A stretch of DNA of 64,000 nucleotides, taken from contig NZ_CP139971.1 of NCBI RefSeq assembly GCF_034424545.1, positions 1,488,001-1,552,000 of the forward strand, read 5' to 3'. The translations under genes were made by a program, and so were the position numbers. Below, one piece after another: positions 12,395 through 34,704 of this stretch; the stretch's first letter is position 1, and each line of letters starts with the position of its first letter. The notes below the pieces were generated by a model that saw nothing but the letters and a program-made list of their open reading frames with translations, did no database searches and was not told the DNA's origin. This DNA is from Trinickia caryophylli. Lineage in GTDB: Bacteria > Pseudomonadota > Gammaproteobacteria > Burkholderiales > Burkholderiaceae.

Positions 12395-13531
12395 CTAAGC
12401 GACGAGCGAGCAGTCCATGAAACGCGAGTTCCCGGATGCGAACAGATCCGCCACGCGGTCTGCCACCTCGACCGCACATCCCCAGGAGAAGGTCACGCCG
12501 GCGCCGCCATGACCGTAGTTGTGAATGACGGATGTGCCCGGGACCTGCTCGAGTCGCACATTGCCTTTTCTGAATGGGCGAAGCCCAACGCGCACCGGTT
12601 CGACAGGATCGATTTCGGCATCCTTGAGCATCGGCAGGAACTCGGTGCAGCGCTCGTAAATACGGCGCACGGGTTCGTAGTTGTGCAAGCCGATGTCCGT
12701 CTCCCATTGGTCCGCTTCCGCTATCGCACCCAGAACGATGCGGTCTTCGCCGCGGGGGACGATGAAGACGATGTCCTGGTCGCTCGTGACATTGTCGTGC
12801 GAGACGCAAAACGCCTGCGTCAGCTTGGGCATTCGCGTGCCGTCGTTGACGAGGCGAATGATCGCGCCGCGCAGCGGATACATCGATTCGCCGGCCAGCT
12901 CGCGCGCGCCCAGGCCCGAGCAGTTCACGATCACGTCCGCGTCGAAGGCACGTTTCAGTGCGGATTCGATAAGCCTCAGATCGCCCTCGATCTTTCGCTC
13001 GATTACTTCGATGCCGGCGGACCGCACTTGCAGCAGCAGCCATTTCATATAAACGTCGGTGTCGACCATGGGCGCCAGATGTCTATACGCATCAACAAGC
13101 CCGATATGAGGGTTCACACCGTTGTCTTCTATCAAGCTCGTGCCGCGCACGAAGCCGGGCACCTGTGCCTCGATCTCTTTCATCTTGGTCAGATGGAAGT
13201 CGTTTTCCTCGATGAGGTTCCTGAAGTAGAACGTCACCGGGCGGACATAGACGCCGGCATCGGGGAGCGCGGATAGCGCTTCGAATTTTCTGAACGACGT
13301 CATGCACCACTGTTTGGAACGCGCAAGCGAAATCTCGTCATGGTGATAGCCGCATACGGCAGGCGGCCATTCCCAAAGAGCCCCCGCGACATTGGACGTG
13401 ATCTGCGGCGAGAATTTCTCGGCGACCACGGTGGATGTAATGCCGCGATCGCGCAGGCACAGCGCGGTCGTCAGACCCGAAACGCCGGCCCCGATCACAA
13501 GCGCGTGCCGTTTTTCTGATGAAGGATTCAC
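12395..13531 (-). CDS. FAD-dependent D-amino-acid-oxidase-like enzyme
   Basis: The 378-residue flavoenzyme starts at GTG 13531 after CAGGAGACATC. It has the FAD Rossmann motif VIGAGVSGLTTALCLRDRG at residues about 11-29. NYGHGGAGVTFSWGCA near the C-terminus is the second FAD-contact motif of the DAO/GlyOx family. Mid-protein features include VNCSGLGARELAGE and LRGAIIRL, also typical of D-amino-acid oxidases. It would oxidise a C-N bond with O2, giving imine or keto product and H2O2. It has its own copy of the cluster regulatory element upstream (13656-13697), which argues that it takes part in the biosynthetic pathway rather than general amino-acid catabolism. Confidence 0.85.
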   Translation of the reverse strand: MNPSSEKRHALVIGAGVSGLTTALCLRDRGITSTVVAEKFSPQITSNVAGALWEWPPAVCGYHHDEISLARSKQWCMTSFRKFEALSALPDAGVYVRPVTFYFRNLIEENDFHLTKMKEIEAQVPGFVRGTSLIEDNGVNPHIGLVDAYRHLAPMVDTDVYMKWLLLQVRSAGIEVIERKIEGDLRLIESALKRAFDADVIVNCSGLGARELAGESMYPLRGAIIRLVNDGTRMPKLTQAFCVSHDNVTSDQDIVFIVPRGEDRIVLGAIAEADQWETDIGLHNYEPVRRIYERCTEFLPMLKDAEIDPVEPVRVGLRPFRKGNVRLEQVPGTSVIHNYGHGGAGVTFSWGCAVEVADRVADLFASGNSRFMDCSLVA

Positions 13532-13655
13532 GATGTCTCCTGGCTCGATTGGCAAGCCCGAATGGATGTAAACGAACGGGACGGCCGGGGGCCGAACGCC
13601 TGCTGCGCTCGGGCGATGTCCGTCGAGTTGATTCAATCACCGCCTGCGCGCAGGC

Positions 13656-13697
13656 GCTCCACCAAAGTTGCGAACCTGGACCTTTCTTGCCATTATT
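13656..13697 (-). promoter_or_regulatory. Cluster regulatory element, copy A
   Basis: This 42-bp stretch matches the two elements between the divergent operons (34 of 42 positions against copy C by eye). On the minus strand it ends GTTCGCAACTTTGGTGGAGC, 124 bp before the GTG of the oxidase gene. It keeps two of the three phased TTGC cores; the middle core is degenerate. A 16-bp palindrome (13641-13656) touches its edge. Confidence 0.7.
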
Positions 13698-13718
13698 TCC
13701 TCGGTCGCAGGCAGGCGT

Positions 13719-14288
13719 TCACGCCGCGGTTACGGGTATGAGCGAAGCGGGCAACGTGTTGTCGGTATCGCGCGCCGGCAGATCTCCATGGCACGACGGC
13801 ACACTCAAGTAATGCCCTGCACAAAATGCGAGCGATGCCCGGCCCGAGCGCAATGCCTGCGTCACACGGCCGATGTGGACGACGTGGTCGCCGCACGGAT
13901 ATTCGGCAACCTTGACGCACTCGAGCGAAGCGGCGGTCCCGCGCAAGAGAGGCGCGCCGCCGCTGCCCAAGGCGTAGTCGATATCTCTGAACTTGTCGTC
14001 GCTCGGCTTGGCGAAGTGGCGCGACATCCACATCTGGTCGTGCGCGAGAATGTTGATCGCGAAGCGCGAGTTTTCGCGAAACGCCGCATAGCTTTTCGAC
14101 GCCGTTGCCTGGCACCACAGGATCAGCGGCGGGTCGAGCGATACCGAACTGAATGAATTCGCGGTCAGGCCGTGCTTGGCACCCATCGCGTCGCAGGTGG
14201 TGACGACGGTCACGCCGGTGGCGAACGTTCCCACTACGTCGCGAAACGTCCGTTCGTCGAATGTTGGCTTGGTGATGCGATCAGACAT
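13719..14288 (-). CDS. Flavin reductase (HpaC-like, FMN-binding split barrel)
   Basis: The 189-residue protein shows FATGVTVVTTCD, GLTANSFSSVSLDPPLILWC, RFAINILA and GDHVVHIGRV, the standard sequence blocks of the HpaC-type flavin reductases. These use NAD(P)H to make free reduced FMN or FAD for a partner monooxygenase. The most likely partner here is the luciferase-like monooxygenase in the divergent operon (26866-27939), a class that needs reduced flavin from outside. It is the last gene of the transglutaminase arm, 43 bp after the ketopantoate-reductase-like gene. Confidence 0.88.
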   Translation of the reverse strand: MSDRITKPTFDERTFRDVVGTFATGVTVVTTCDAMGAKHGLTANSFSSVSLDPPLILWCQATASKSYAAFRENSRFAINILAHDQMWMSRHFAKPSDDKFRDIDYALGSGGAPLLRGTAASLECVKVAEYPCGDHVVHIGRVTQALRSGRASLAFCAGHYLSVPSCHGDLPARDTDNTLPASLIPVTAA

Positions 14289-14331
14289 GACTGCCCCCCC
14301 GTCTGTCCGTAGACTGTGCGTCGAACTCGCG

Positions 14332-15252: not shown

Positions 15253-15287
15253 ATGATCAGGTTTCCGTTGCGAGTGTCGTCGTGGGT

Positions 15288-17039
15288 CTATTTCTCGATC
15301 AGCAGATCGTCGATAAAGAGCGCGTCGATTCCGCTCGTCAGGAATACGGCCAGCGCGTCCTCCACCGAATGCGCGATTGGTTTGCCCATCACGTTGAAAC
15401 TGGTGTTGAGCACGAGCGGGACGTCGGTGAGACGATGGAACGCCTCGACCAGCGCGTGAAAGCGCGGGTTCCATTGTCGTTTTACGGTTTGAAGGCGGCC
15501 GGTCCGATCCGCGTGCACCACGCCCGGAACCTGGGCCAGCACCCCATCCCTGAACCTGAGGGTGCGCTCCATATAGGGCGACTCGTCATAGTCGTGAAAA
15601 TAGTCCGGGCCGCATTCGTGAAGAATTGCCGGTGCGAAAGGCCGGAATTCTTCCCGGAATTTGACGGTTGCATTGATCTTGTCCTTGACCGAAGGCGAGC
15701 GCGGATCGGCGAGGATCGATCGATTGCCCAACGCGCGGGGACCGAACTCGGCCCGCCCCTGTATCCAGCCGACGATCTTGCCGTCCGCGAGCAGCGCCGC
15801 CGCGCGCTTCGGCGCATCGCCGTCACACTGGGTCAGCTTGCCCGCTCCGCTGAACGCAACGACGTTGCGCAGCGTGTCGGCGGACATCGTCGAACCGAGG
15901 TACGGCGACATCGGTTCGGTACGACGCGGCAAGCCCGGGTGATCTTCCCGGTAGGCGAGCAGCGCCGCGCCCACGGCGTTGCCGTCGTCGCCAGGCGCGG
16001 AAAACACGTGCAGCTTCTTAAAGGGCGTATGCGCCAGAATCCTTCCGTTCGCCGACGAGTTCAACGCACAGCCGCCGCCGAAGACGAGATTGTCGGAAAA
16101 GCCGGTTGCATGCAGGTTCCCGAGAAATTCGAAGAGCACTTCCGAGAAGACCTCTTGGCCTGCGTAAGCCAAATCCGCGAACGCCAGGGCGGGTTCGCCG
16201 TCACGGCGACGCATGGCATGAAGCTCCGCCTGCAGTTGCGCCATGCGAGCCGGTGCGGCGAAGCGGATATTGAGCCCGTCCACCGTAACCATCTCGCGCA
16301 GCATCGCATGGAGCGATTCGTCGTGACTGCCGTAGGCGGCCAAGCCCATGACCTTCCATTCTTCACCGCATAGATGATTGAAGCCGCATGCCTCGCATAT
16401 GAGGCTGTAGAAGATGCCGAGGCTCGCCCAGCCGGCGCCTTGCGGACCCTCGATGGGCGTCAGTTCGCCTGCGTCATAGCGAAAGCAGGCAAACGAACTG
16501 CGCTCGCCGAAGCCGTCGAGCACTGCGCAAAGCGCGCGGTCGAAAGGGCTGCTGAAGCAGGCGGCCGCGGCGTGGGTCAGGTGATGTTCGAAGCGCCGGC
16601 GCTCGATCGGCGTGCGCTCCCAGCCGTCGCGCTGACTCAGATCGTATTCGAGCAATTGGCCCGGATGATCGAGCAGAGAGCGTTGAGACCGGAAATAGAA
16701 TTTTTGCCGGCTCAACTGGCGCCTGAGTGGAACGGGCGCTTCACCGAGCATTGCCCGGTAGCGGTGTTCCATTTCCGCGGTATGTTCGAGATTGCGCTCC
16801 ATGATGCCAGCCGTCTCGTCACTCCAGCTCGTCGCAATCACAAGTTCGGCGTGCGGATCGCAGTGCGCCTCGATCAATTCGGCGGTACGCATGAACAGAT
16901 CGGGGGCGATGCCGATCGTGCGCTTGTACTGCAGATAACGTTCGGTGGCTTCTGCGAACACCACCTCGCCTTGCGCGTCGACAATTGCAATCGCCGAATC
17001 GTGAAAGGAGTTGGCGATGCCGATGTAGTTGCGTTTCAT
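15288..17039 (-). CDS. NodU/CmcH-family O-carbamoyltransferase
   Basis: The 583-residue protein has the two domains of the family. The N-terminal YrdC/Kae1-like part carries the metal ligands in HHLTHAAAACF and ends its fold with FGGGCALNSSANGRI. The C-terminal part has RAEFGPRALGNRSIL and FREEFRPFAPAIL. Family members (NodU, CmcH, TobZ) move a carbamoyl group from carbamoyl phosphate, through a carbamoyl-adenylate, to a hydroxyl of a natural product. The length is normal and nothing is missing. It lies between the transglutaminase-like gene (55 bp upstream) and the reductase gene, so a carbamate in the final product is likely. Confidence 0.92.
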   Translation of the reverse strand: MKRNYIGIANSFHDSAIAIVDAQGEVVFAEATERYLQYKRTIGIAPDLFMRTAELIEAHCDPHAELVIATSWSDETAGIMERNLEHTAEMEHRYRAMLGEAPVPLRRQLSRQKFYFRSQRSLLDHPGQLLEYDLSQRDGWERTPIERRRFEHHLTHAAAACFSSPFDRALCAVLDGFGERSSFACFRYDAGELTPIEGPQGAGWASLGIFYSLICEACGFNHLCGEEWKVMGLAAYGSHDESLHAMLREMVTVDGLNIRFAAPARMAQLQAELHAMRRRDGEPALAFADLAYAGQEVFSEVLFEFLGNLHATGFSDNLVFGGGCALNSSANGRILAHTPFKKLHVFSAPGDDGNAVGAALLAYREDHPGLPRRTEPMSPYLGSTMSADTLRNVVAFSGAGKLTQCDGDAPKRAAALLADGKIVGWIQGRAEFGPRALGNRSILADPRSPSVKDKINATVKFREEFRPFAPAILHECGPDYFHDYDESPYMERTLRFRDGVLAQVPGVVHADRTGRLQTVKRQWNPRFHALVEAFHRLTDVPLVLNTSFNVMGKPIAHSVEDALAVFLTSGIDALFIDDLLIEK

Positions 17040-17094
17040 GGAAGATTCCGCCTGTCAGAGGCTATGACTCACCGGACCCCGCGGACCGGTCCCT

Positions 17095-17994
17095 TCACAC
17101 GGTGATCGAATAGCGGCCGAGCACCGGGCTGAAGCTATGAATTTCGGTGCCGTTGGAAATATCGGTTACATCGCGAAATAGATCGATCAACTGCCGGCAT
17201 TCCAGATCGAGCCGGCAATCGGTGGCGGCCGCACGGTCCAGCAGGTCGAGAAACGCGCTTCCGTCGGCGGTGCATCGCGGATCGCTGAATTCGTAGTAGC
17301 GTCCCCACTGATCCCACATCAATGTCTCGTAGCCGGCGAGCGATGCGAGGTCGTACATCACGAAACTGAGCACGAGCCATCTGCTCGGGCGCTCGCCGAG
17401 CTGGTGGCCGCTGAAGGCCTGGGGGGTTTGTTCGCCGGCGCGAAGCTGACGCCATGCTTCGCCTGCCGGCATGAACAGCGAACGCGGCAGATCGTCGGGC
17501 GCGAACGGCGTATCGGAACCACGTACGTAAGGCATACGGCTTTCCGCCAGCAGCCATTCGCTGCCATTCCAGTACTCGACAACCGCGTGATTGTGCAGCG
17601 GGTTCTTCCGCTGATACAGCATGTGCGCAAACCCGAAACGCACGCGCGCCGGAATGCCTTGATGGCGCATGAACGAACAGAGCAGCACCGCTGTGTCGCG
17701 ACAGGTGCCGAGCAGCCGCTGGTCGGCTGGCCGCCGCTGGCTCAATGCCGCTTCGTTCAGGCTGAAGATGCGCTGGAGCATGGTCGACACCAGACGCGAG
17801 TCGACTTCGTGTCTGCGCTCGACCAGCGTCTGCTTGTCCAGTGCCGCTTCGTCCGTCTTGAAGTGGACGATGAGCCCGTCGACGATTTCGACGAGTTCGC
17901 GAATCGATTGCGGCAGTCCTTCGATCTCGACTTCGTAGGGATGTACGGAAGTCACGATGCTTTGCTCGCGATAACGCGCTACGTAATCGGACAC
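17095..17994 (-). CDS. Transglutaminase-like protein, possible amide synthase
   Basis: The 299-residue protein has a transglutaminase core: Cys98 in LLGTCRDTAVLLCSFMRHQG, His136 in LHNHAVVEYWNGSEWLLAES, and an acidic residue (Glu151) where the triad Asp is expected. It starts at GTG 17994 after AGAAGAGGC. Bacterial relatives are often proteases, but AdmF of the andrimid pathway is a transglutaminase-fold enzyme that joins an acyl carrier thioester to an amine. The gene heads the minus-strand arm, directly opposite the acyl carrier protein gene, so the AdmF-like role is attractive. The Glu in place of Asp should be noted. No signal peptide is seen, which fits a cytoplasmic role. Confidence 0.8.
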   Translation of the reverse strand: MSDYVARYREQSIVTSVHPYEVEIEGLPQSIRELVEIVDGLIVHFKTDEAALDKQTLVERRHEVDSRLVSTMLQRIFSLNEAALSQRRPADQRLLGTCRDTAVLLCSFMRHQGIPARVRFGFAHMLYQRKNPLHNHAVVEYWNGSEWLLAESRMPYVRGSDTPFAPDDLPRSLFMPAGEAWRQLRAGEQTPQAFSGHQLGERPSRWLVLSFVMYDLASLAGYETLMWDQWGRYYEFSDPRCTADGSAFLDLLDRAAATDCRLDLECRQLIDLFRDVTDISNGTEIHSFSPVLGRYSITV

Positions 17995-18391: not shown

Positions 18392-18694
18392 ATGTCGAAC
18401 GCCGAAAACAGTATGAAAGAGACGATTCTGGCAGCGATCAGTGAAGTGACGGGACGTCCGATTCCGGACGGGGGCGTGAATGACGATGCCAGCGTGTATG
18501 AGCTGGGTATCGATTCGATGAGCCTCGTCGAACTCATTTTCAAGCTCGAGGCCGAACTCGAGATCGACATTCCGCTCGCGGAACTCAACGAGAGCATCTT
18601 CGAGAGCCTCGCCGCACTGGTTACCTACCTCGAAAGCCGCAAGCAGGCGATGGCCGGGGCGGATTCGCTTGCCCCCGCAGATGCGGCAAAGTAA
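18392..18694 (+). CDS. Acyl carrier protein
   Basis: The 100-residue acidic protein has the phosphopantetheine site ELGIDSMSLVELIFKLE with Ser42 as the modified residue, followed by LEIDIPLAELNE and a last helix. It would carry acyl or aminoacyl intermediates as thioesters. Being first in a long operon with its own AMP-ligase, and not next to fabD/fabG/fabF, it is a dedicated carrier and not the housekeeping ACP. GGGA lies just before the ATG. The next gene starts 22 bp after its stop. Confidence 0.93.
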   Translation: MSNAENSMKETILAAISEVTGRPIPDGGVNDDASVYELGIDSMSLVELIFKLEAELEIDIPLAELNESIFESLAALVTYLESRKQAMAGADSLAPADAAK

Positions 18695-18716
18695 TTCCGG
18701 CCGAGCCTCCACCATC

Positions 18717-19793
18717 ATGCAACCGTCGGTTCACAGGCACGTTTCGGGCTCCGTTTCCGGCCTTGCGCTGAACACGCTCGTGCCGGCATGCCGGCACGAT
18801 CTCGCCGACGAGCAATCGAATTTCGCGCATAGGCGGCACGGCACGCTCGAAGGGCTCGGGCCTGCGCATCACCTGGTCGCGCTCGCATTGCATCGAGGCA
18901 ACTACGCCGCGACCATGGAGGTGCAGCCCGATTGGCGTGCTCGACTCGTGCGCGAGCGGGATGACACCGGGACGATTTTCGTCGAGCACGACATGCCGCT
19001 CGGCGACATGATGTCGTACGTGGCCGAGCCATTGCTCGGCAGGCTCGCGCCCGCGGGCAATCTCGTCATCAACTGCCAGAGCACCCGCGAATCCGTATTC
19101 GGCTCGTCGAATGCGGGGCGGATTCTCAGCGAGGCATCGCGTAGCGGCCTGGGTTTCACGGTTGGGCAACGGGGGCTCGTAGGCGGCATTCAAGCCCTCG
19201 AAGCCGCGCTCGTGCTCGGGCGCAACAGCCGGTTTTCCGGTACCGCGCTGCTGTGCGCCGGCGACAGATGGATCGACATCTATCCGCGCATTCTGGGCAA
19301 GTGGGCAACGCTGAGCGATGGCGCCGCGGCGGCGGCCTTCACGATCCGGCCGGATGCCCCTGAAAACCTGTGGATCCTCAACGATCGTGTGTCGAGCTAC
19401 TCGATCGACGCGCTTGCCGACGCCTCGCACGAATCTTCCGTCGCGCGCATCCATGGAGAACTGGTCGAACGGCTGTCGACATTGATCGATGCATCGTCGA
19501 TGGGCCGCGGCGGGTTGCTCGCGATCGCATCGCCGAGCGTCTGCGGCACGCTTGGGGGCGACGTCGAACGGTCGCTGGCGTCGCGCTACCCGCTCATTGG
19601 CGCGGGCAGTCCGCCCGAGCGCACACATTTCGGCTCGGCGAATGCGTTGATCAATCTGCAGCGTGCTGTCGGCGGGCACGAAGGCACGGCGAACGCTTAT
19701 GCGCCGGACGCTTACTTGACCTGGGATTGCGATCCATCGGGGCTCTTCGGCGCGGTCATCGTTGCCCGTTCCGCATTCGACACCGCACACTGA
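18717..19793 (+). CDS. KAS III-like protein lacking the catalytic cysteine
   Basis: The 358-residue protein has a thiolase-like layout. LGFTVGQRGLVGGIQALEAA (145-163) falls where KAS III enzymes carry the nucleophilic Cys, but no Cys is present. LSDGAAAAAFTI (199-210) equals the GDGAAA motif. THFGSANALINLQRAV comes near the end. It is therefore probably non-catalytic for condensation, like a chain length factor, or uses a different chemistry. I rate the fold assignment as likely but not certain. Its stop at 19793 overlaps the ribosome site of the next gene, which encodes a second KAS III-like protein, so the two may form a heterodimer. Confidence 0.6.
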   Translation: MQPSVHRHVSGSVSGLALNTLVPACRHDLADEQSNFAHRRHGTLEGLGPAHHLVALALHRGNYAATMEVQPDWRARLVRERDDTGTIFVEHDMPLGDMMSYVAEPLLGRLAPAGNLVINCQSTRESVFGSSNAGRILSEASRSGLGFTVGQRGLVGGIQALEAALVLGRNSRFSGTALLCAGDRWIDIYPRILGKWATLSDGAAAAAFTIRPDAPENLWILNDRVSSYSIDALADASHESSVARIHGELVERLSTLIDASSMGRGGLLAIASPSVCGTLGGDVERSLASRYPLIGAGSPPERTHFGSANALINLQRAVGGHEGTANAYAPDAYLTWDCDPSGLFGAVIVARSAFDTAH

Positions 19794-19803
19794 GGAGGTT
19801 TCG

Positions 19804-20775
19804 TTGAACTTGTCCGTCGACCAGCCCGCCGAGGCCACGTTTAGTCCGTTCGGGATCGCCCGATTGGGATCGTGCTTCGGCGATGCGACTATGGAACTGG
19901 ACGATCTGACGCATCGGGAGATCTGTTCGGTCGAGGAAGTGGATGCGATCCGGGCCGCCGGCAGCCGCCAGTTCTTTCGCTCGATGACGTTGTCGATCGA
20001 GGAACTCGCCGTGGATGCCACCCGCAACGTCTTGCGCGAAGCCGGCATCGAGCCCGCGGACGTGGGCTTTCTCGTATTTTGCAGCACGGTATTCGAGAGC
20101 ACCGCGCTCTATCCGGACGTGATCGCATCGCGGATCGCCGACGGAGCCGGTTGCGTGCATGCAAAGACGTTCTCCGTGCAGCACGCGTACTGCGTGTCCC
20201 CGTTCGTTGCGTTGCAGATTCTGAAGGAGTATTTCGGCGAACGTGAACAGCCCGCGTACGGCGTGGTCGTCTGCGCGGACATGATCGGCAAGAGTGCCGA
20301 GTATCTGCGGCCCATCGGCGTGCTCGGCGTACACAGCGATGGCGCGGCCGCGATGCTCGTTACCAATCGGAGCCCGGAATTTCAGCTGCTGGATACAGAG
20401 ATCTTCATCGATCCGGCCCGTTTCCAGGGGCGAAGCGACGACGGCAGAATCCAGCACGACGTTCGCTATTTCATGCTGCTCGCGAAAGTGCTGAAGACGT
20501 TGCTCAATCGTTGCAATGTGGATTCGATGGACGATGTCGCGCTTTTTCCGAACAATCTCAGCGCGCCGTCGTGGCGCAAGATCGGCCAACTGCTGTCGAT
20601 CCGCGAGGAGAACATACTGCTTGGCGAGATGCCGCGGGTTGCGCACGTATTCGGTGCGGATCCGTTCCTGAACCTCGCGTCCCCGGCGTGCGCCACCGAT
20701 CGTCGCTATGCGTTGCTGGTGGCGAGCGGCATTGCCGGCGCGTTCGGCGCGGCTCTCATGCGCAGGTGCTTATGA
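19804..20775 (+). CDS. 3-oxoacyl-ACP synthase III-like protein
   Basis: The 323-residue protein starts at TTG 19804, chosen because GAGGAGGTTTCG precedes it. It shows the KAS III order: ELAVDATRNVLREAGIEPAD, VFCSTVFEST, Cys130 in FSVQHAYCVSPFVALQIL as nucleophile, and HSDGAAAMLVT. Where KAS III has the catalytic His (HQAN), this protein reads FPNNLSAPSW, so His is replaced by Asn. A normal decarboxylative condensation is therefore doubtful; acyl transfer or a heterodimeric active site with the preceding protein are alternatives. It overlaps the next gene by 4 bp. Confidence 0.78.
   Translation: MNLSVDQPAEATFSPFGIARLGSCFGDATMELDDLTHREICSVEEVDAIRAAGSRQFFRSMTLSIEELAVDATRNVLREAGIEPADVGFLVFCSTVFESTALYPDVIASRIADGAGCVHAKTFSVQHAYCVSPFVALQILKEYFGEREQPAYGVVVCADMIGKSAEYLRPIGVLGVHSDGAAAMLVTNRSPEFQLLDTEIFIDPARFQGRSDDGRIQHDVRYFMLLAKVLKTLLNRCNVDSMDDVALFPNNLSAPSWRKIGQLLSIREENILLGEMPRVAHVFGADPFLNLASPACATDRRYALLVASGIAGAFGAALMRRCL

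Positions 20776-24494: not shown

Positions 24495-24495
<1 letters not shown>
23704..24495 (+). CDS. Stand-alone acyl-CoA-dehydrogenase C-terminal-like protein
   Basis: The 263-residue protein matches only the helical C-terminal half of acyl-CoA dehydrogenases. VLAGLGGRLIRDAYDYANTR and GYQLVCAKLADMAIADEIVEE (about 134-182) equal the family blocks around the re-entrant helices. The N-terminal and beta domains are missing, and no catalytic Glu motif is seen. A full-length dehydrogenase lies 1.1 kb downstream, so it may be a non-catalytic partner subunit. GTG 23704 overlaps the ligase stop (GTGA) and follows GGAG; ATG 23749 is an alternative. Confidence 0.65.
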
Positions 24496-25565
<1,070 letters not shown>

Positions 25566-26865: not shown

Positions 26866-27939
26866 ATGAAGTTCTCCCTCTTTTACGAACTGCAGATGGC
26901 GAAGCCGACGCCCGACGAGGAAGCCAGGCTGATCGCTCAATGCGCACGGCAGGCGGTGATGGCCGACGAACTGGGTTATCACTGCCTATGGGCGGTCGAG
27001 CATCATGGGCTGTACGGCTACTCGCATTCTTCTGCGCCCGAGGTTTTTCTGTCGTACGTCGCGGGCAAAACGCGCAAGATTCGGCTCGGGCACGGGATTT
27101 CGCTCACGCCGCACCGGTACAACCACCCGATCCGCGTTGCCGAACGCGTCGCGATGCTCGATGTCCTGTCGGGCGGCCGCGTGAATTGGGGGTCCGGCCG
27201 GAGTTCGAGCAACATCGAACCCGAACTCTTCGGCGCATCGCGCGACACGCTCGAATCCGAATGGAGGGAAGCGCTCGAACTGGTTCCGGCCATATGGCAG
27301 AACGACGTGTTCGAATGGAACGGTCAACACTACAAGGTGCCGCCCACGCGCATCCGGCCGCATCCCGTGCAAAAGCCGCATCCGCCCATGTTCGCGCCGG
27401 CATTCTCCGACCACTCGCTGCTGTCGGTGGCCGAGCTGGGTCTTGGCGCGCTGAATTTCAGCCTTGGAAGCTTCGACGAGATGGTCGCGAAGATCGGGCG
27501 CTACCGGGCCGCACTTGCGAATTCGCCGGCGAGACCTTACGCGCGCAACGATTGCTTCGCGGTCACGGTGAATACCTGTGTTTTGCCGAACGACCATGAA
27601 GCATGCCGGCACGGGTTCCGGGGTGCCCGCTATTTCAAGGACGCGTTCAACCTTTACTACTACCGAACGCCATTGCCGCTTTCCGCGCCGATGAGCGTGA
27701 ACACCGACGATCTCGACGATCAGACGCTGGCCTTCACGAAAAAGATGCGCATGAACCCCGAGACGCAGCTTCTGTCGATGATCGGCGATCCCGCCATCGC
27801 GCGTGAAAAGGTGCGGCTGTTTCAGGAAGCAGGCGTAGACGAATTGCTGCTGTGCATGCAACTGGGCACCGTACCGCCGGAAATCGTGGAACGGTCGCTG
27901 ATCTGCTTCGCGGAGCAGGTCATGTCGCATTTTCTCTGA
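26866..27939 (+). CDS. Luciferase-like flavin-dependent monooxygenase
   Basis: The 357-residue protein has the LLM TIM-barrel blocks: GYHCLWAVEHHGLYGYSH, KIRLGHGISLTPHRYNHPIRVAE, MLDVLSGGRVNWGSGRSSS and GDPAIAREKVRLFQEAGVDEL. Such enzymes use reduced FMN made by a separate reductase; the HpaC-like protein encoded at 13719-14288 is the likely source. Group A monooxygenases of this type in biosynthetic clusters hydroxylate carbon or nitrogen next to a carrier-bound acyl group, or insert oxygen. The reaction here is not known. It belongs to the main operon by orientation and spacing. Confidence 0.9.
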   Translation: MKFSLFYELQMAKPTPDEEARLIAQCARQAVMADELGYHCLWAVEHHGLYGYSHSSAPEVFLSYVAGKTRKIRLGHGISLTPHRYNHPIRVAERVAMLDVLSGGRVNWGSGRSSSNIEPELFGASRDTLESEWREALELVPAIWQNDVFEWNGQHYKVPPTRIRPHPVQKPHPPMFAPAFSDHSLLSVAELGLGALNFSLGSFDEMVAKIGRYRAALANSPARPYARNDCFAVTVNTCVLPNDHEACRHGFRGARYFKDAFNLYYYRTPLPLSAPMSVNTDDLDDQTLAFTKKMRMNPETQLLSMIGDPAIAREKVRLFQEAGVDELLLCMQLGTVPPEIVERSLICFAEQVMSHFL

Positions 27940-27998: not shown

Positions 27999-29117
27999 AT
28001 GAGTACCCTCGACAATCTCCGCACGCAACTGCAGGCGCTCTACTATCCGCCATCGAGGCACGGGACGTTGAAGTTGTCGGTGGCGGCACACCCTGAGCTC
28101 GATCTGTATTTCTCGATGACCGACGCGCTCGACGTGCTCGACGTGGGAAGGGGGCCGACGGTTGCATGCGAGGCCGAGTTGCGGCTCAGCCTGGGCATGA
28201 TCGACTACATCCTCGCAAACGCGCAGACATTCGACCCGCGCGATCCGCCCTACGTCAAGGCGATTCGCGCGCAAGGCGATATGGGCCTCGTGCATCACTT
28301 CATGCAGTTGCTGAAGCGGCCGACGCCCGAGATAAGTGCGATTCACGCCGGCCTTCGGCAGCGTGTCTACGACACGAGCCAGGGCATCGAGGAAAGCGAC
28401 TACATCGATCCGGATGCGGTGCTCGATGCGATGGCCGAGAGCCGCCCGCTGTGTTTGCGCGGGGTGTTGAATTCTCCGCTCGTCGAACTGGGCGAAAGCG
28501 GGTTCGTCGAGCAATTCGGCAACGTCATGTTGCGCCAGAACGGTGTGAGCGGCCGGCAGGAATCGGTGGCCGATATCGCCGCAAAGATACGAGACGAATC
28601 GGTGGACCGCGTCTATCTCAACGGCGTGGAAGTGCCGCAAGTCCTCGCGCCGCACGTCCGGTTCCCGATGTTCGACGAGCGGGCATTCTCGATCGGCTTG
28701 TTGTGGTGGGGAAAGAAGACGTCGAACGGCGTGATCACCAAATTGCACAGAGATTTTCAGGTTTCTTTTCTCGCTCAGATTTTGGGGGAGAAGAAGCTGC
28801 ACCTCTTTTCCCCGGATCAGGCGGAGGCATTGTACGCGGCGCCCGCGTTCAACCTCTATCAGCTGTGTCAGGTCGACCCCGGTTCGCCGGACCTTGCCCT
28901 CTATCCGCGGTTCGCGGGTGCGCGTGCGCTGGAGGTGTGCATTGGCCCGGGCGACATGCTCGTCATTCCGACCGGCTGGTTTCATTGCGTATGGGCGTTG
29001 ACGAACGTGCTGTCGGTCAATCGGTTCATGGAGGAGGCCACGCTTGCCGAGCTGCGAACCGGCGAATCGGCGAAGCGGCTGCGGCGCGATCGCGCTCAAC
29101 TTTCGATGAACGGATAA
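27999..29117 (+). CDS. SCP2-like and cupin_8/JmjC hydroxylase fusion
   Basis: The 372-residue protein seems to join two domains. Residues about 25-108 (LSLGMIDYILANAQ, IRAQGDMGLVHHFMQLL) resemble an SCP2 sterol-carrier domain, which binds lipid tails. Residues about 140-345 form a cupin_8/JmjC core with a metal triad: His250 and Asp252 in ITKLHRDFQVSFLAQI and His329 in IPTGWFHCVWAL. Fe(II)/2-oxoglutarate hydroxylation is the family reaction. A fusion of lipid binding with hydroxylation fits a long-chain acyl substrate. ATG 27999 follows GGGAG at slightly long spacing. The SCP2 call is by eye and less sure than the hydroxylase call. Confidence 0.75.
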   Translation: MSTLDNLRTQLQALYYPPSRHGTLKLSVAAHPELDLYFSMTDALDVLDVGRGPTVACEAELRLSLGMIDYILANAQTFDPRDPPYVKAIRAQGDMGLVHHFMQLLKRPTPEISAIHAGLRQRVYDTSQGIEESDYIDPDAVLDAMAESRPLCLRGVLNSPLVELGESGFVEQFGNVMLRQNGVSGRQESVADIAAKIRDESVDRVYLNGVEVPQVLAPHVRFPMFDERAFSIGLLWWGKKTSNGVITKLHRDFQVSFLAQILGEKKLHLFSPDQAEALYAAPAFNLYQLCQVDPGSPDLALYPRFAGARALEVCIGPGDMLVIPTGWFHCVWALTNVLSVNRFMEEATLAELRTGESAKRLRRDRAQLSMNG

Positions 29118-29180
29118 ACGAGTGGAAGTGGTGGTGCCGCGCAAATCTCCGGGCACGCCGCTTCGCCTAGCGGAATCGAG

Positions 29181-30455
29181 ATGATGATCAATGCCGAAGT
29201 AGAGAGTGGTGTGTCGATGAACGACGACGAAGCGTCCTACCGTTCGCCGATTGCGGCTGCATGGCCTTGCACGCAGGATGGCGAGTTCACGCTGGCGGGC
29301 ATGCGCCTCTCGGAGGTCGTCGAGGCAGTGGGCGGCACACCCTGTTATTTATACGATCGCGCCCGTATCACGGAGCGCATACACCGGTTGAGACGGGCGC
29401 TGGATCCGGCGGTCGAGCTCTACTACGCGATCAAGGCGAATCCGATGCCGGCGGTGGTGGGACACATCGCGCACCTGGTGAACGGGTTCGATGTCGCTTC
29501 CGCCGGCGAGATGAGGGTCGCACTTGATGCGGGTGCTCGCGCGGCGGATATCAGCTTCGCCGGGCCGGCGAAATCCGACAGCGAACTGGAACAAGCCTAT
29601 GCGGCAAACGTGCTCGTGAACGTGGAATCCCGGCGCGAGCTGGATCTGCTGGCGAAAAAAAGCGAGCAGAACGGACGCGCCGCCCGCGTTGCGCTGCGTG
29701 TGAACCTGCCTTTCGAACTGAAGGCGTCCGGCATGCAGATGTCCGGGGGTGCGAGGCAGTTCGGGCTCGACGCGGAAACGATGCCCGAGGTCATTGCGCA
29801 GACGGTCGCGCTCGGGCTCGAATTCGAAGGTTTCCATCTCTTTACCGGTTCTCAGAATCTGCGCGCGGAAGCGGTCATCGAAGCGCAGCGCAAGAGTTAC
29901 GAGTGGGCGCGCGAACACGCGGCGCTCGCCCGCGAGCCGATCAAGTCGATCAACCTGGGCGGCGGGATGGGCATCCCCTACGGCGACAACGATGCCCGCA
30001 TCGACGAGAAAGCGGTCGTCGATCATCTGAATGCACTCGCTGAAAAAGCGCGCCGCGACTTCGGCAAGATCAGCCTCGTGCTCGAACTGGGGCGCTACCT
30101 CGTCGGCGAGGCCGGGCTCTATGTGAGCCGGGTCGTGGATCGAAAGCGCTCGCGGGGCAAGACGTTCGTTGTTGTCGACGGTGGGATGCATCAGCACTTG
30201 GCTGCGTCGGGAAACTTCGGCCAGGTGTTGCGAAAGAACTACCCGATCGCCATCAACCGGAAGCCGTTCGGCGACGAGACGATCAGTGTCGTAGGCCCGC
30301 TTTGCACGCCGCTCGATTTGCTTGCGAACAACGCAAAGCTCGCTCATGCGGAGCGGGGAGATCTGGTCGTCATTTTTCAATCGGGTGCTTACGGACGCAG
30401 TGCCAGCCCCTCGGCGTTTCTTGGCCACCCTCCGGCACGAGAGGCCCTGATCTGA
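29181..30455 (+). CDS. PLP-dependent decarboxylase (LysA/ODC fold III)
   Basis: The 424-residue enzyme has Lys85 in LYYAIKANPMPAVVGHIA as the PLP Schiff-base residue, SAGEMRVALDAGA, HLFTGSQ, INLGGGMGIPYG for phosphate binding, and GPLCTPLDLLANN near the C-terminus, the active-site Cys block. This last form is common in the exosortase-associated and carrier-linked decarboxylases rather than in DAP decarboxylase. In vicenistatin and fluvirucin pathways a homologous enzyme decarboxylates an aspartyl group bound to a carrier protein. A similar role is plausible here because ligase, carrier and decarboxylase share the operon. ATG 29217 is an alternative start. Confidence 0.88.
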   Translation: MMINAEVESGVSMNDDEASYRSPIAAAWPCTQDGEFTLAGMRLSEVVEAVGGTPCYLYDRARITERIHRLRRALDPAVELYYAIKANPMPAVVGHIAHLVNGFDVASAGEMRVALDAGARAADISFAGPAKSDSELEQAYAANVLVNVESRRELDLLAKKSEQNGRAARVALRVNLPFELKASGMQMSGGARQFGLDAETMPEVIAQTVALGLEFEGFHLFTGSQNLRAEAVIEAQRKSYEWAREHAALAREPIKSINLGGGMGIPYGDNDARIDEKAVVDHLNALAEKARRDFGKISLVLELGRYLVGEAGLYVSRVVDRKRSRGKTFVVVDGGMHQHLAASGNFGQVLRKNYPIAINRKPFGDETISVVGPLCTPLDLLANNAKLAHAERGDLVVIFQSGAYGRSASPSAFLGHPPAREALI

Positions 30456-30456
30456 A

Positions 30457-31215
30457 ATGAGAGAAGCCGTGGATCGTCGTGAAACATCGGGAGACGAAGC
30501 GATGCAGGTCGCCAGCTTGAAGCATGCGTCGAGGTCGTACGGGAAAGGCGCGGCGAGGGTCGACGCGGTGCGGGACGTGAGCGTCGACATTCTCGGTAAC
30601 CGGTTCACGGTACTGTCGGGGCCGTCGGGAAGCGGCAAGACGACGCTGTTGAATTTGATTGGATGTATCGACCGCGTGAACGCGGGAAGCGTGACGGTTG
30701 CCGGTGTAGAGGTGACTCGAATGCGCGACAACGCGCTATCCGATTTCCGTGCTTCGCAGATCGGGTTCATCTTCCAGAACTTCAATCTGTTGCCCGTGCT
30801 GAGCGCGGCCGAAAACGTCGAATATCCGCTGACGTTGCTCGGCACGCCCGCGGCTGCGAGGCGTCGTACCGCCATGGAACTGCTCGAGGCGGTGGGGCTT
30901 GCAAAGGAGGCCCGGCGACGGCCCGGAGAACTGTCGGGCGGGCAGAGGCAACGCGTCGCCATCGCGCGCGCGCTGGCGACGAACCCCAAACTCGTTCTCG
31001 CCGACGAGCCTACCGCGAACCTCGATAGTCGCACGGGAGCGGAAATCATCGAATTGATGCGCACCATGCAGCGCGAGCGTTCGACGTCGTTTTTATTCTC
31101 TTCCCACGATCCCAACGTGCTGTCGAGCGCGGACGACGTCATTCTGATCAAGGACGGCACGATAGTCGACACACGCCGCAACGTCCAGGATGCCCCCACC
31201 GGAACACGGCCATGA
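30457..31215 (+). CDS. ABC transporter ATP-binding protein (LolD/MacB type)
   Basis: The 252-residue ATPase has Walker A GPSGSGKTTLLNLIG, Q-loop FIFQNFNLLPVL, signature LSGGQRQRVAIARAL, Walker B LVLADEPTANLD and the switch His in FSSHDPNVL. The closest families are LolD and MacB partners, which drive extraction or mechanotransmission at the inner membrane without forming a classical channel. It starts 1 bp after the decarboxylase stop and overlaps the permease by 4 bp, so it is fully coupled to both. Confidence 0.92.
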   Translation: MREAVDRRETSGDEAMQVASLKHASRSYGKGAARVDAVRDVSVDILGNRFTVLSGPSGSGKTTLLNLIGCIDRVNAGSVTVAGVEVTRMRDNALSDFRASQIGFIFQNFNLLPVLSAAENVEYPLTLLGTPAAARRRTAMELLEAVGLAKEARRRPGELSGGQRQRVAIARALATNPKLVLADEPTANLDSRTGAEIIELMRTMQRERSTSFLFSSHDPNVLSSADDVILIKDGTIVDTRRNVQDAPTGTRP

Positions 31216-32600
31216 AGACGCTATCGATCGCTTTCAGAAACCTGCTTCGTAACCGGCGTCGCTCGACCCGTACGCTGCTCGCGATGGTCATCGGCCTGAC
31301 GGCGGTATTGCTGTTCGGCGGGTACGCGCGCAACGTCACCTATGGCTTGCAGACGAACTTCGTTCGCGGCGAGGGCCATCTGCAGATCCAGCGCAAGAAC
31401 TACTTTCTTTATGGCGCGGGCGATCCGATGGCCTACGGAATCGACCATTACCAGCATGTAATCGACGTTGTGCGCAACGATCCCGTGCTGTCGCCGCTGG
31501 TCACGGTCGCGACACCGATCCTGTCGGTGAGTGGCATTGCGGGAAATTACGGCGCGGGGGTTTCCAGCACGGTGATTGGCCTTGGAGTCGTCGTAGCGGA
31601 CCAGAATCGTATGCGGCAGTGGAACGATTACGGCTTTCCGATGCACTTCCGGCCGCTGTCGCTGACCGCCACCGCGGCCAACGCAGCGGTGATCGGCATG
31701 GGCCTCGGGCGTATCCTGCGGCTTTGCGGGCCGCTCGCCATTCCGAACTGCGCGTTGAACGACGTGCACAAGGTCGGCGCCGGAGCGACCCCGCCTGACG
31801 ACATCGCTCAGCTTTCGGCCATGGCGGCGGCAGACATGCCGAAAACGAAGCGCGCGGGCATCCAACTGCTTACAGCCAATGCGTACGGCGCCCCCAACGT
31901 GGCGCAACTGGCGGTCGTGAAAGCGGAAAGCCAGGGCGTTCGTGCGGTCGACGACCGTTATCTGCAGTTGCATCTGGAACAGGCCCAGAAGCTGATCTAT
32001 GGCAACGACCCCGGCAAGGTGACCGCGATCGCGGTGCAGTTGCGGCATACCGCCGATCTGCCGGCGGCGATGCAGCGCATTCGGCAACTGGAAGCCACCA
32101 CCCTGAAGCAGGACGATCTCGACGTGCTCGATTTTCGGGTGCTCAGCCCGCAATATCTGCAGATTACGGGCATGTTCCGGGCCATCTTCGGATTCGTCAC
32201 GTTGCTGATCGGTGTCATCGTGATGTTCATGGTCGGCAACACGATGAGCATGGCGGTCATGGAGCGCACAGTCGAGATCGGCACGCTGCGCGCCATGGGC
32301 TTGAGGCGCCTCGGCGTATTGCGGATCTTTCTCATGGAAGGCGCGTTGCTCGGCCTCTTGGGCGCCGCTGTTGGCGTGAGCTGCGCGCTCCTCGCCGCAT
32401 GGGCAATCAATCATGGTGGTTTTCGATGGACACCCCCCGGTGAAATCGACGCCGTGCCCTTGACCGTCCGAGTATTTGGCGAGACTCGGATGATCGTTGG
32501 CTATGCGGTGGGAATCGTGGCGATTTCGGCGATTTCCGCGTTTTGGCCGGCGCGGCGCGCCGCCCGGATGCCCATCGTCGATGCACTGTCGTACGCCTGA
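31212..32600 (+). CDS. ABC transporter permease (FtsX/MacB/LolC family)
   Basis: The 462-residue protein has one N-terminal membrane segment (ALRNLLRNRRRSTRT region, then LLAMVIGLTAVLLFGGYA), a periplasmic domain of about 280 residues, and three C-terminal segments with the FtsX block MFMVGNTMSMAVMERTVEIG and TLRAMGLRRL. This is the type VII ABC layout of LolC/E and MacB. With the LolA-like and barrel proteins downstream, it probably moves a lipid-like molecule from the inner membrane into the periplasm. Confidence 0.9.
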   Translation: MKTLSIAFRNLLRNRRRSTRTLLAMVIGLTAVLLFGGYARNVTYGLQTNFVRGEGHLQIQRKNYFLYGAGDPMAYGIDHYQHVIDVVRNDPVLSPLVTVATPILSVSGIAGNYGAGVSSTVIGLGVVVADQNRMRQWNDYGFPMHFRPLSLTATAANAAVIGMGLGRILRLCGPLAIPNCALNDVHKVGAGATPPDDIAQLSAMAAADMPKTKRAGIQLLTANAYGAPNVAQLAVVKAESQGVRAVDDRYLQLHLEQAQKLIYGNDPGKVTAIAVQLRHTADLPAAMQRIRQLEATTLKQDDLDVLDFRVLSPQYLQITGMFRAIFGFVTLLIGVIVMFMVGNTMSMAVMERTVEIGTLRAMGLRRLGVLRIFLMEGALLGLLGAAVGVSCALLAAWAINHGGFRWTPPGEIDAVPLTVRVFGETRMIVGYAVGIVAISAISAFWPARRAARMPIVDALSYA

Positions 32601-32626
32601 GAAACGTGAGGAAGCGGAGACGCATT

Positions 32627-33427
32627 ATGAAAAGCGGCGGTTATGGGCCCATTGTGCGGCTGTGGCTTCTCTTCTTGTTTTGCTCGGTCTATGGGCACGC
32701 CGTTGCGCAGACGGATGCCGCGAGGGCGCAGCAGCTGCTGGAGGCGAGCGACGCGATCCGCAACCCCGGGCGGCCGTTCAGTCTGACCACGACGCTGACC
32801 GAGTTCAGAGGGGGGCAACAGACGGGCACGAACACGCTCACGGTGTATTCGAAGGAAGACCCTGCAACGGGGCAGTTCAATAGCCTCGTGCGATTCGATG
32901 CGCCGTTGCGCGATGCGAACAAGCTGGTTTTGAAGAATGGCAGCGATCTGTGGTTCTACGATCCGAACAGTCAGGCGAGCGTGCGGATTTCGCCTCAGCA
33001 GCGGCTTTTGGGGCAGGCGGCGAACGGTGACGTGGTGACGGTCAATTTCGCAAAGGACTACGCTGCCACGGTGGCCGCCGAGGAGGACGTGCTCGACGGC
33101 GACCATCGCAACCGCCACGCGTACAAGCTCAAGCTGACCGCGCGTTCGCCGAGCGTGACCTACAACGCGATCGAAATGTGGATCGACGCCAGCACGCGGC
33201 AGCCCGTCAAGGCGCGCTTTTACGCGGAAAGCGGGACGCTGCTCAAAACCACGTATTACCGCAAATTCACGCAGGTGCTGGGCGCGGATCGGCCCACCGA
33301 AACAGTCATCATCGACGGATTGGATCCTGGCTGGGTGACCGTCATGCGCTATTCGAATTACGCATGGCGTGACATTCCGGACGAATGGCTTCAGCGAGCA
33401 TATCTGCCGCACTTTCAGAGCAATTGA
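32627..33427 (+). CDS. Periplasmic LolA-like lipoprotein-sorting family protein
   Basis: The 266-residue protein has a signal peptide (LWLLFLFCSVYGHAVAQT) and the LolA-like (outer membrane lipoprotein-sorting) pattern: RFDAPLRDANKLVLKNGSDLWFYDPNS, ISPQQRLLGQAANGDVV, and YNAIEMWIDASTRQPVKARFY. Members of this group are found beside MMPL or FtsX-type exporters, not with LolB, and are thought to carry a hydrophobic cargo across the periplasm. It sits 26 bp after the permease gene and is followed at once by a barrel protein gene. Confidence 0.85.
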   Translation: MKSGGYGPIVRLWLLFLFCSVYGHAVAQTDAARAQQLLEASDAIRNPGRPFSLTTTLTEFRGGQQTGTNTLTVYSKEDPATGQFNSLVRFDAPLRDANKLVLKNGSDLWFYDPNSQASVRISPQQRLLGQAANGDVVTVNFAKDYAATVAAEEDVLDGDHRNRHAYKLKLTARSPSVTYNAIEMWIDASTRQPVKARFYAESGTLLKTTYYRKFTQVLGADRPTETVIIDGLDPGWVTVMRYSNYAWRDIPDEWLQRAYLPHFQSN

Positions 33428-34704
33428 AGGTGACGGTGGGTCCGTTGCGCGCCGCCGTCGCGCTCGTTGCCTGGGCCGCGTTCGGGTGCCTGGCGCCTGA
33501 GGTCGCTCGCGCGGACAGCGACGCCGATGCACTTTCCTTGGCCGATACCGTCACGGCCAATACGTCGGCGCATCGCGATTGGCAATGGGCGTTCGAGGCG
33601 GGGGTTGGCAACTATAACGCCGCCAGTCAGACGACGAATGCCGTGCTTGCCGACAATGCGAGGCTGTCGTCGTCGGTCAGCTATGACGGTTCGCTCGCAC
33701 CGAACTGGCGAGCGGTTTTTTCGAACCGGCTCGACGCGGGCTGGCGCGCGGGCGTCGGCCGGTACAACGCGGTCGATACGCTGAAGCAGGCGTACCTGAG
33801 CTGGCAGCCGAATCCAACGACGATCGTCGACGCGGGCCGCGTGAATTTGCGTGAAGGCGTTGCGCAAGGATTCAACCCGACGGACTTTTTCAAGACGAAT
33901 GCCGTCCGGTCGATCGTTTCGATCGATCCCGCCAGCCTGCGCGAAAATCGCATGGGAAGCGTGATGTTGCGCGGCCAGGTGCTGTGGGCCAGCGGGTCGT
34001 TGAGCGGGTTGGTCTCGCCGAAGCTCGCTTCGCAACCGAGCAGCGCGACGTTCAATCCGGACCTCGGCGCCACCAACAATCAAAGCCGCTACATGTTGAC
34101 GCTGACGCAGCGGCTCTTCGGGACCGTTGCGCCGCAGTGGCTGCTCTATGGCGGGGACGGCATCTCACCCCAGCTCGGTTTGAACGTCTCGCTGCTGACC
34201 GGGAGTGCCACCACCGCGTATTTCGAGTATTCGGGTGGACGAAGCGAACACCTTGCGGCAGGCGCGGGCGAATCGAAAGGATTCCATTCGAAGTTCGCCA
34301 CGGGCTTTACCCACACCTTCCCGAACAATCTCTCCGTGACGATCGAATACGACTACGACGGCGCGAGCCCGGACCGGTCGGCATGGAACCGGCTCGCGTC
34401 CGACCCCGCGCGGTACTGGCGGTATCGGCGGGCAGCCAACGCCGCGCAGGAATTGATGACGCGGCAGGCGCTGTTCAACTACGTGACGTGGCAGGATGCG
34501 CTGATGCGGCATCTGGACCTCACGGCGATGCTTCATTACGACCTGGTGGACCACAGTTACTCGACGTGGCTCGAAGCGCGTTACCACTGGCCGCGAACAG
34601 ACGTTGCGGTGCAATGGCAGACCAACCACGGCGCGTCGCAGAGCACTTATGGTGCCGACGCGCAAAAGCAGGTGGTGCAGGCGGTGGCAACGTTCTTCTT
34701 CTAG
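33424..34704 (+). CDS. Exported outer-membrane barrel protein of the exporter set
   Basis: The product of about 426 residues has a signal sequence (VAWAAFGCLAPEVARADS) and many alternating strands, with turns rich in Asn, Asp and Gly. It ends QAVATFFF, the terminal Phe of outer-membrane barrels. I do not recognise a named family. The start is uncertain: TTG 33424 overlaps the previous stop, GTG 33436 has a better ribosome site, and ATG 33385 would overlap the LolA-like gene by 43 bp. It is last in the operon and would form the outer-membrane end of the export path, or a lipid receptor. Confidence 0.7.
   Translation: MKVTVGPLRAAVALVAWAAFGCLAPEVARADSDADALSLADTVTANTSAHRDWQWAFEAGVGNYNAASQTTNAVLADNARLSSSVSYDGSLAPNWRAVFSNRLDAGWRAGVGRYNAVDTLKQAYLSWQPNPTTIVDAGRVNLREGVAQGFNPTDFFKTNAVRSIVSIDPASLRENRMGSVMLRGQVLWASGSLSGLVSPKLASQPSSATFNPDLGATNNQSRYMLTLTQRLFGTVAPQWLLYGGDGISPQLGLNVSLLTGSATTAYFEYSGGRSEHLAAGAGESKGFHSKFATGFTHTFPNNLSVTIEYDYDGASPDRSAWNRLASDPARYWRYRRAANAAQELMTRQALFNYVTWQDALMRHLDLTAMLHYDLVDHSYSTWLEARYHWPRTDVAVQWQTNHGASQSTYGADAQKQVVQAVATFFF

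Follow-up and report, generated by a model that had tools for sequence, protein, structure and literature searches.

Introduction

The vicenistatin VinN/VinO and butirosin BtrJ/BtrK modules prime a polyketide synthase (PKS) or an aminoglycoside side chain. In modules of the VinN/VinO and BtrK type the side-chain carboxyl of the amino acid is loaded on a carrier protein and α-decarboxylation follows, as outlined in the available sections of the report on bolagladin from Burkholderia gladioli (PMC7756342). The same sections propose that BolO, BolC and BolN load and decarboxylate aspartate on a free carrier; BolO is described as VinN-like and BolN as BtrK-like, the homologues of KAS III (β-ketoacyl-acyl carrier protein synthase III) carry Ser or Thr in place of the active-site Cys, and the dehydrogenase BolQ serves dehydro-β-alanine formation. 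Deletion of bolN abolished production and deletion of bolQ gave new metabolites, from which its authors argued that the unit is decarboxylated and desaturated while carrier-bound; the dehydro-β-alanyl starter feeds a nonribosomal peptide synthetase (NRPS). In 2025, amide assembly on a free carrier without condensation (C) domains was shown biochemically for AFC-BC11. The accessible part of that work (PMC12186527) describes a stand-alone adenylation (A) domain (AfcQ), a sole carrier (AfcK), a pyridoxal phosphate (PLP) decarboxylase (AfcP), KAS III-like proteins (AfcL/O/R) and an acyl-carrier dehydrogenase, with no C domain; AfcQ loads L-Asp on AfcK in vitro, loading repeats, and AfcP decarboxylates. 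Here we analyse a biosynthetic gene cluster at positions 12395-34704 of a 64,000-nucleotide stretch of the Trinickia caryophylli genome (contig NZ_CP139971.1, 1,488,001 to 1,552,000), called the window in what follows. An earlier annotation made from the letters alone (the sequence-only reading) could match this gene set to no known pathway; we found that its core is of the VinN/VinO, BtrK, BolO/BolN/BolC and AfcQ/AfcP/AfcK kind of β-aminoacyl carrier module, as far as the two reports describe them (PMC7756342, PMC12186527).

In our reading, the locus is a natural-product cluster with a free-standing β-aminoacyl carrier module at its centre. We hold the scheme as a whole, from ligase and decarboxylase through the KAS III-like pair to tailoring, to be the probable one, with some reserve. 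Its gene content, enzyme classes, aspartate-recognition residues and relation to a family of sister clusters are established here at the sequence level.

Results

Gene content and reference loci

Codon-based gene calling gave 20 genes, 5 on the minus and 15 on the plus strand, arranged in two divergent arms (Table 1). This coherent set agrees with the dedicated cluster of about 19 genes in two divergent arms proposed by the sequence-only reading. Family scans were carried out with Pfam (29 window genes) and NCBIfam; together with the gene calls, they revealed no NRPS or modular PKS among the 20 genes, as that reading had also held. No match to Rfam and no tRNA gene was found in the window.

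For comparison, 299 Burkholderiaceae genomes were searched with the ligase at E 1e-80, a threshold at which looser relatives would be missed. Matches were found in 33 genomes, host included, and 36 match places outside the window's own locus were fetched: 16 form a family of sister loci (L025, L030-L044), 17 are afc-like (18 with L005; afc and bol were not told apart within this group), and 3 contain the ligase only, one of these with an ATP-binding cassette (ABC) match. L004 and L005 were taken as afc on the basis of gene content and organism, not of a sequence from PMC12186527. When 84,980 species genomes were scanned with six exact peptide patterns, which misses many relatives, the sister family included, 48 relatives of the ligase were obtained, the best at 39% identity; the record of the host itself may be masked in this set.

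A ligase predicted to load aspartate

The ligase is 39-43% identical to the ligases of the 18 afc-like loci and 37-40% identical to the 16 sister-family ligases; its best plasmid matches lie on B. cenocepacia and B. arboris replicons. It resembles TIGR03098, below the NCBIfam cut-off, and VinN is the best PDB match for its residues 190-350. The VinN residues named as recognition residues in the available part of PMC7756342, Asp230, Ser299 and Arg331, align with D204, T272 and R304 of the window ligase (the VinN numbering offset of 16 was counted by hand from the printed alignment). D204, T272, R304 and K506 are conserved in the alignment, and in the comparison with the ligase of L005, whose numbering is two lower than that of AfcQ at both places, AfcQ Arg311 corresponds to the R of TEAFR and Lys503 to the K of NGKFDR.

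The D, T and R residues are present in 10/10 afc-like and 15/15 sister-family ligases aligned, and D, S/T and R in 46 of 48 other ligases, the exceptions being L091 and L092; these others are L006 and 47 of the 48 loci L045-L092, L090 having been left out. The three residues never occur together in 16 paralogue AMP-ligase regions of the host genome (6.59 Mb, two contigs), where D is found in 12, S at the second place in 2 and R in 2; these regions are 16 of the 31 other match places in that genome, and some align only in part. This pattern suggests that the substrate is the β-carboxyl of aspartate, and the acid that the sequence-only reading had placed on the carrier is thus refined to, most likely, the side-chain carboxyl of aspartate.

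Phylogenetically, the ligase of the window groups with the afc-like ligases (support 0.87) and with these plus the sister family (0.99). Trees used 10 of the 18 afc-like loci and, for the ligase, 15 of the 16 sister-family rows, L036 (short frame) being left out. L004 was excluded from grouped counts and trees, its ligase frame being broken in that record, and L005 was used instead. L004 is a B. cenocepacia record whose afc-like ligase gene, at about 19900-21440, has lost its frame, which is open in L005; either a sequencing error or a real loss may lie behind this.

A decarboxylase of the BtrK kind

The PLP decarboxylase scored 528.9 bits with TIGR03099, against a curated cut-off of 478.45. 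Its nearest PDB entries are those of BtrK (E 3.5e-68 and 3.7e-68), followed by 6knh/6knk, 'probable diaminopimelate decarboxylase' (6.4e-50, 4.4e-49), and by other diaminopimelate decarboxylases at 1.1e-45 and weaker. It is 46-51% identical to the sister-family decarboxylases and 26-27% to those of L004/L005. Its profile and structure matches indicate that it most likely acts on a carrier-bound amino acid, in the manner of BtrK and VinO. Although TIGR03099 is the exosortase-A-associated decarboxylase, Pfam assigned none of the 29 window genes to an exosortase family.

The KAS III-like pair and the dehydrogenases

In a fold search with a predicted model, KAS III-like protein A (KAS-A) gave a KAS III fold with ChlB3 as the best match. 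The alignment places Leu154 at its nucleophile column, where the afc-type row has Thr, so that KAS-A is probably a non-catalytic partner. In KAS III-like protein B (KAS-B), Cys130, His281 and Asp286 are invariant in 11/11 aligned rows. With Leu at the nucleophile column in 18717 and Cys130 in 19804 (genes are named here by their first position in the window), the two may possibly form a KAS III heterodimer with one inactive partner, of the PqsBC kind.

The dehydrogenase 25576-26790 matched the NCBIfam prolyl-PCP dehydrogenase at 4.7e-33, below cut-off and behind acryloyl-CoA reductase. It keeps the MEGTGD motif and is 36-42% identical to the sister-family dehydrogenase in 16/16 loci; on these likenesses, it is predicted to desaturate the carrier-bound unit. 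The protein encoded by 23749-24495 gave a weak profile match to the second dehydrogenase of the sister family (54 columns, probability 78%) and is a possible partner of 25576-26790.

Sister clusters and rarity of the locus

The ligase, the decarboxylase, both KAS III-like proteins and the dehydrogenase co-occur in 16/16 sister loci, as they do in the window, so that the search for conserved gene sets proposed by the sequence-only reading did find the core again; the sister family amounts to 16 of the 299 genomes. At the same threshold, none of 48 ligase-only loci gave a match for the KAS III-like or dehydrogenase genes. Differently from the window, the sister loci carry a second KAS III pair, a second dehydrogenase, a GNAT gene and a GntR gene: homologues of these L044 genes, both members of the second pair included, were found in 16/16, with an amidase in 15/16, LuxR in 15/16 and LuxI in 14/16 (L039 ends at a contig end). 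Families were scanned in L031 and L044, and gene order was compared in eight loci. No carbamoyltransferase, monooxygenase, cupin or DAO match was found in the sister or afc-like loci (15-20 kb each; 41 kb of L005), and no MATE match in the sister loci within their 15-20 kb. We found no description of the sister family in the literature searched, from which subscription papers were mostly absent.

A close orthologue of the cluster was not found among the 84,980 species genomes searched with the ligase, 398 family and 11 genus genomes, and plasmids. KAS-A matched 20 of the 398 family genomes, the host and 19 others at 29-34% identity. As a single query it gave 2 weak matches besides its own in 300 genomes of the order, and none in the plasmid search. 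The KAS-A profile was not discriminating, 303 of 369 genomes matching presumably through ordinary KAS III genes.

A related trio beside a carbamoyltransferase

The locus L045, from an Acetobacteraceae metagenome-assembled genome (MAG), contains at 1563-9243 one row of a sugar transferase, a ligase, a decarboxylase, a carrier-sized open reading frame (ORF) without family, a carbamoyltransferase and a GNAT gene, in what looks like a polysaccharide locus. Its ligase is 39% identical to that of the window, with D, N, T and R as in the window, its decarboxylase 46% and its carbamoyltransferase 33%; no KAS III-like, dehydrogenase or oxygenase match was found on its 10-kb contig. A carbamoyltransferase beside a ligase/carrier/decarboxylase trio is therefore not unique to the window, which suggests that carbamoylation of carrier-borne units of this kind is not unique to this cluster either. 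Decarboxylases 35-53% identical to that of the window were found in 43 of the 48 loci L045-L092, a group of ligase matches that is probably mostly exosortase-associated. The exosortase-A-associated trio may make β-alanyl-carrier, and this gives the so far unnamed ligase and decarboxylase of exosortase-A loci a role that can be tested. The idea that the cluster is itself an exosortase locus was rejected on gene content, although a polysaccharide reading retains some footing through L045.

Tailoring and export genes

The carbamoyltransferase contains both carbamoyltransferase domains, and its nearest solved relatives, novobiocin carbamoyltransferase (NovN), GdmN and TobZ, are O-carbamoyltransferases. 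The carbamoyltransferase assignment of the sequence-only reading is therefore confirmed and narrowed to the natural-product O-carbamoyltransferase class, and the product is probably carbamoylated. The five closest plasmid homologues of the enzyme are 43-51% identical to it. Its best plasmid relatives lie in PKS clusters of Eleftheria terrae and Nostoc and in a P450/Rieske-rich cluster of Planktothrix; those of two Rhodobacterales have an AMP ligase, an annotated carrier and a P450-type protein as neighbours. Neither the rest of the host genome nor 10 further genomes of the genus contained a counterpart above 41%.

Table 1. Genes of the cluster, with positions in the window.
Predicted product	Position	Strand	Basis
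DAO-family FAD oxidase	12395..13498	-	Pfam DAO 5.3e-36
Flavin reductase	13719..14288	-	Pfam 4.5e-38; NCBIfam p-hydroxyphenylacetate 3-hydroxylase reductase, FerA and others, all below cut-off
Ketopantoate-reductase (PanE/ApbA)-like reductase, 306 aa	14332..15252	-	Gene calling, Pfam, NCBIfam
O-carbamoyltransferase, novobiocin/GdmN/TobZ type	15288..17039	-	Pfam 1.9e-67 and 4.9e-30; PDB E 5.1e-73
Transglutaminase-like protein	17095..17994	-	Pfam Transglut_core 2.7e-9, residues 96-149 only
Free-standing acyl/peptidyl carrier protein	18392..18694	+	Pfam PP-binding 4e-13; GIDSM phosphopantetheine site at residue 39
KAS III-like protein A (KAS-A)	18717..19793	+	Predicted model and fold search; alignment
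KAS III-like protein B (KAS-B), probable acyltransferase	19804..20775	+	NCBIfam, alignment
MATE-family exporter	20772..22130	+	Pfam MatE 3.5e-9
Stand-alone adenylating ligase, VinN/AfcQ-like, predicted for aspartate β-carboxyl	22127..23707	+	Identities, residues, PDB match
Short acyl-CoA-dehydrogenase C-terminal-domain protein	23749..24495	+	Pfam 2.2e-5
Protein with Gly/Glu-rich linker; GNAT-like by position and low-confidence secondary structure only	24495..25565	+	No family
Acyl-CoA-dehydrogenase-type enzyme (prolyl-carrier dehydrogenase/BolQ kind)	25576..26790	+	Pfam 2.7e-18 and 2.8e-18
Luciferase-like flavin monooxygenase	26866..27939	+	Pfam 5.6e-45; PDB
Cupin_8/JmjC-type, probable Fe(II)/2-oxoglutarate hydroxylase	27999..29117	+	Pfam 1.9e-21; HRD at 250, GWFHC at 326
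PLP decarboxylase for carrier-bound amino acid, BtrK kind	29181..30455	+	TIGR03099; BtrK E 3.5e-68
ABC exporter ATPase	30502..31215 (longer ORF 30457-31215 scanned)	+	Pfam, NCBIfam
FtsX/MacB-type permease	31284..32600 (longer ORF 31212-32600 scanned)	+	Pfam FtsX 1e-15
LolA-like periplasmic protein	32627..33427	+	Pfam LolA_like 3e-37
Probable outer-membrane channel, by position	33430..34704	+	No family; weak 35-residue match to L004 counterpart, E 5e-5

The nearest solved relatives of the DAO protein are D-amino-acid oxidase and D-aspartate oxidase (PDB E 4.2e-28 and 2.4e-24). For the ketopantoate-reductase-like gene, the 306 aa start was chosen over a 380 aa ORF because the family match starts at residue 75-77 of the longer one. 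The flavin reductase probably supplies FMNH2 to the luciferase-like monooxygenase. The cupin protein shows an HxD...H-like pattern, and plasmid searches with it and with the monooxygenase gave only relatives below 60% identity. The transglutaminase-like protein, for which no useful PDB match was obtained, is a possible amide former or releaser. The 24495-25565 protein has a long Gly/Glu-repeat linker in its middle and a low-confidence predicted model; its candidacy as a homologue of the sister-family GNAT was rejected (profile probability 14%).

The full export set named by the sequence-only reading stands as regards the MATE exporter and the ABC, FtsX, LolA and probable outer-membrane proteins; its ABC part is of a common type. 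The ATPase is 48% identical to that of the afc-like loci L004/L005, but it also matches 15 of 48 control loci, up to 48%. The ABC/FtsX/LolA cassette is therefore not specific, and was rejected as proof of descent from afc.

Outside the cluster, the window contains at 42396-47505, on the plus strand, a type VI secretion VgrG-like gene followed by a gene for a Tle3-like phospholipase effector, and at 39460-41634, on the minus strand, a peroxidase-family gene, which we take to be of the KatG kind, with DNA about 80% identical to rhizobial and Burkholderia plasmid genes.

Discussion

We propose that L-aspartate is activated at its side-chain carboxyl by the ligase 22127 and so attached to the carrier 18392, where the decarboxylase 29181 would remove the α-carboxyl to give β-alanyl-carrier; loading may repeat to give an oligomer, as in AFC-BC11. 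The pair 18717/19804 would transfer acyl or aminoacyl chains onto or off the carrier and form the amide, and dehydrogenase 25576, perhaps with 23749, would convert the N-acyl-β-alanyl to a dehydro-β-alanyl unit. Oxygen would be added by the monooxygenase with its flavin reductase and by the cupin hydroxylase. The oxidase, the ketopantoate-reductase-like enzyme and the carbamoyltransferase of the minus arm could take an amine through ketone and alcohol to a carbamate, and the MATE and ABC/FtsX/LolA/outer-membrane proteins would export the product, most likely a hydroxylated and O-carbamoylated N-acyl-β-alanine amide, which may be dehydro- or oligomeric. In this scheme the substrate, step order, acyl donor, repeat number, release and carbamoylation site are inferred. 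The sequence-only reading is supported in having an acid loaded on a free carrier, decarboxylated, possibly desaturated and built into an amide, and in naming genes for tailoring and export; as a whole its interpretation is partly supported.

Several observations weigh against this scheme. Overall identities are low (37-43% for the ligase), and KAS-A is only 17-22% identical to the sister family over its length. KAS-B has Asn-Asn where 7/11 rows carry His at the first position. The pocket residue of the window ligase is N208, whereas it is S in 10/10 afc-like and 15/15 sister ligases (N in 21/48 others), and because of this difference another amino diacid is possible as substrate. The two nearest rows of the ligase tree are MAG loci, L048 from Planctomycetota (support 0.70) and L045 (0.81), and the latter adjoins a sugar transferase; the decarboxylase tree groups the window protein with three exosortase-type rows and not with the afc-like decarboxylases. 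The gene set contains no second AMP ligase of the AfcA kind that would account for an acyl cap, and enzyme classes allow no more than a guess at the site of carbamoylation and at the series from amine to carbamate.

A narrower version of the scheme goes further: a line free of both condensation domain and fatty-acyl ligase, in which one A domain, a carrier, a decarboxylase and a KAS III pair with one inactive member would make a dehydro-β-alanine-type amide, with the minus arm converting amine to carbamate. We put this forward tentatively, as a rather doubtful reading; if true, the chemotype would be new, and Burkholderiaceae would have a third lineage in which free-standing enzymes assemble β-aminoacyl units.

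The BtrO/BtrV pair, a monooxygenase and a flavin reductase, hydroxylates the side-chain unit of butirosin. In a similar route here, glutamate would be loaded by its side chain, decarboxylated to γ-aminobutyryl-carrier and hydroxylated by the monooxygenase with flavin reductase. Such a γ-amino unit agrees with the proximity of the decarboxylase to BtrK, which acts on L-glutamyl-carrier, with the presence of both flavin enzymes in one cluster and with N208, which is unlike the Asp-loading AfcQ type. We consider it unlikely, since the ligase matches aspartate-type VinN and AfcQ in the named recognition residues, and both the dehydrogenase gene and the KAS III-like ones are in keeping with a cluster of the bolagladin/AFC kind.

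A strictly afc-like lipopeptide, in which a dehydro-β-alanine trimer would bear a fatty acyl head, a terminal amino acid and an extra carbamoylation, is distinctly improbable. The ABC ATPase, FtsX, LolA-like and putative outer-membrane genes do lie in the same order as in L004, and identities to L004/L005 reach 42-44% for the ligase as well as the value given above for the ATPase. However, that cassette is not specific, and the second AMP ligase, citrate synthase, methyltransferase and fatty-acid desaturase families are missing from the set, although four of the 20 genes have no clear family and this absence is not absolute.

Finally, that the ligase/carrier/decarboxylase trio and the carbamoyltransferase decorate a polysaccharide or serve an exosortase-type modification, the other genes being an unrelated neighbour cluster, is very unlikely: the two TIGR matches, the Sinorhizobium meliloti pSymB trio lying among glycosyltransferase genes and the L045 row speak for it, but none of the 29 window genes scanned with Pfam fell into an exosortase, glycosyltransferase or polysaccharide family, and KAS III-like, dehydrogenase and tailoring genes lie between those of the trio along a single plus-strand run, an arrangement shared by the sister family.

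The β-aminoacyl carrier scheme can finally be set against the known systems. We know of no KAS III pair or acyl-carrier dehydrogenase of the window's kind in the VinN/VinO and BtrJ/BtrK modules. With afc, the cluster has in common a carrier, an A domain, a PLP decarboxylase, KAS III-like proteins and the lack of a C domain. It differs from afc in having one AMP-ligase family match among the 20 genes, with no AfcA-like fatty acyl-AMP ligase besides; family scans of these genes found no citrate synthase, O-methyltransferase or desaturase. The carbamoyltransferase, the luciferase-like and cupin oxygenases, the DAO gene and the ketopantoate-reductase-like gene are in turn present in the window but not in afc. 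Because the acyl-AMP ligase, citrate synthase and methyltransferase of the one, or the NRPS of the other, were not found, the cluster is not an afc or bol cluster. The sequence-only reading had named a close match to a described pathway as what would tell against it; the match extends to the logic of the core, while the whole set differs from both afc and bol. The window and the 16 sister loci show the ligase/decarboxylase/KAS III/dehydrogenase set to be a reusable module with varying tailoring genes, which in the window stands with a carbamoyltransferase and two oxygenases. Judged by its genes, the locus follows the logic of the bolagladin and AFC-BC11 carrier modules for β-aminoacyl units, with a different tailoring set.

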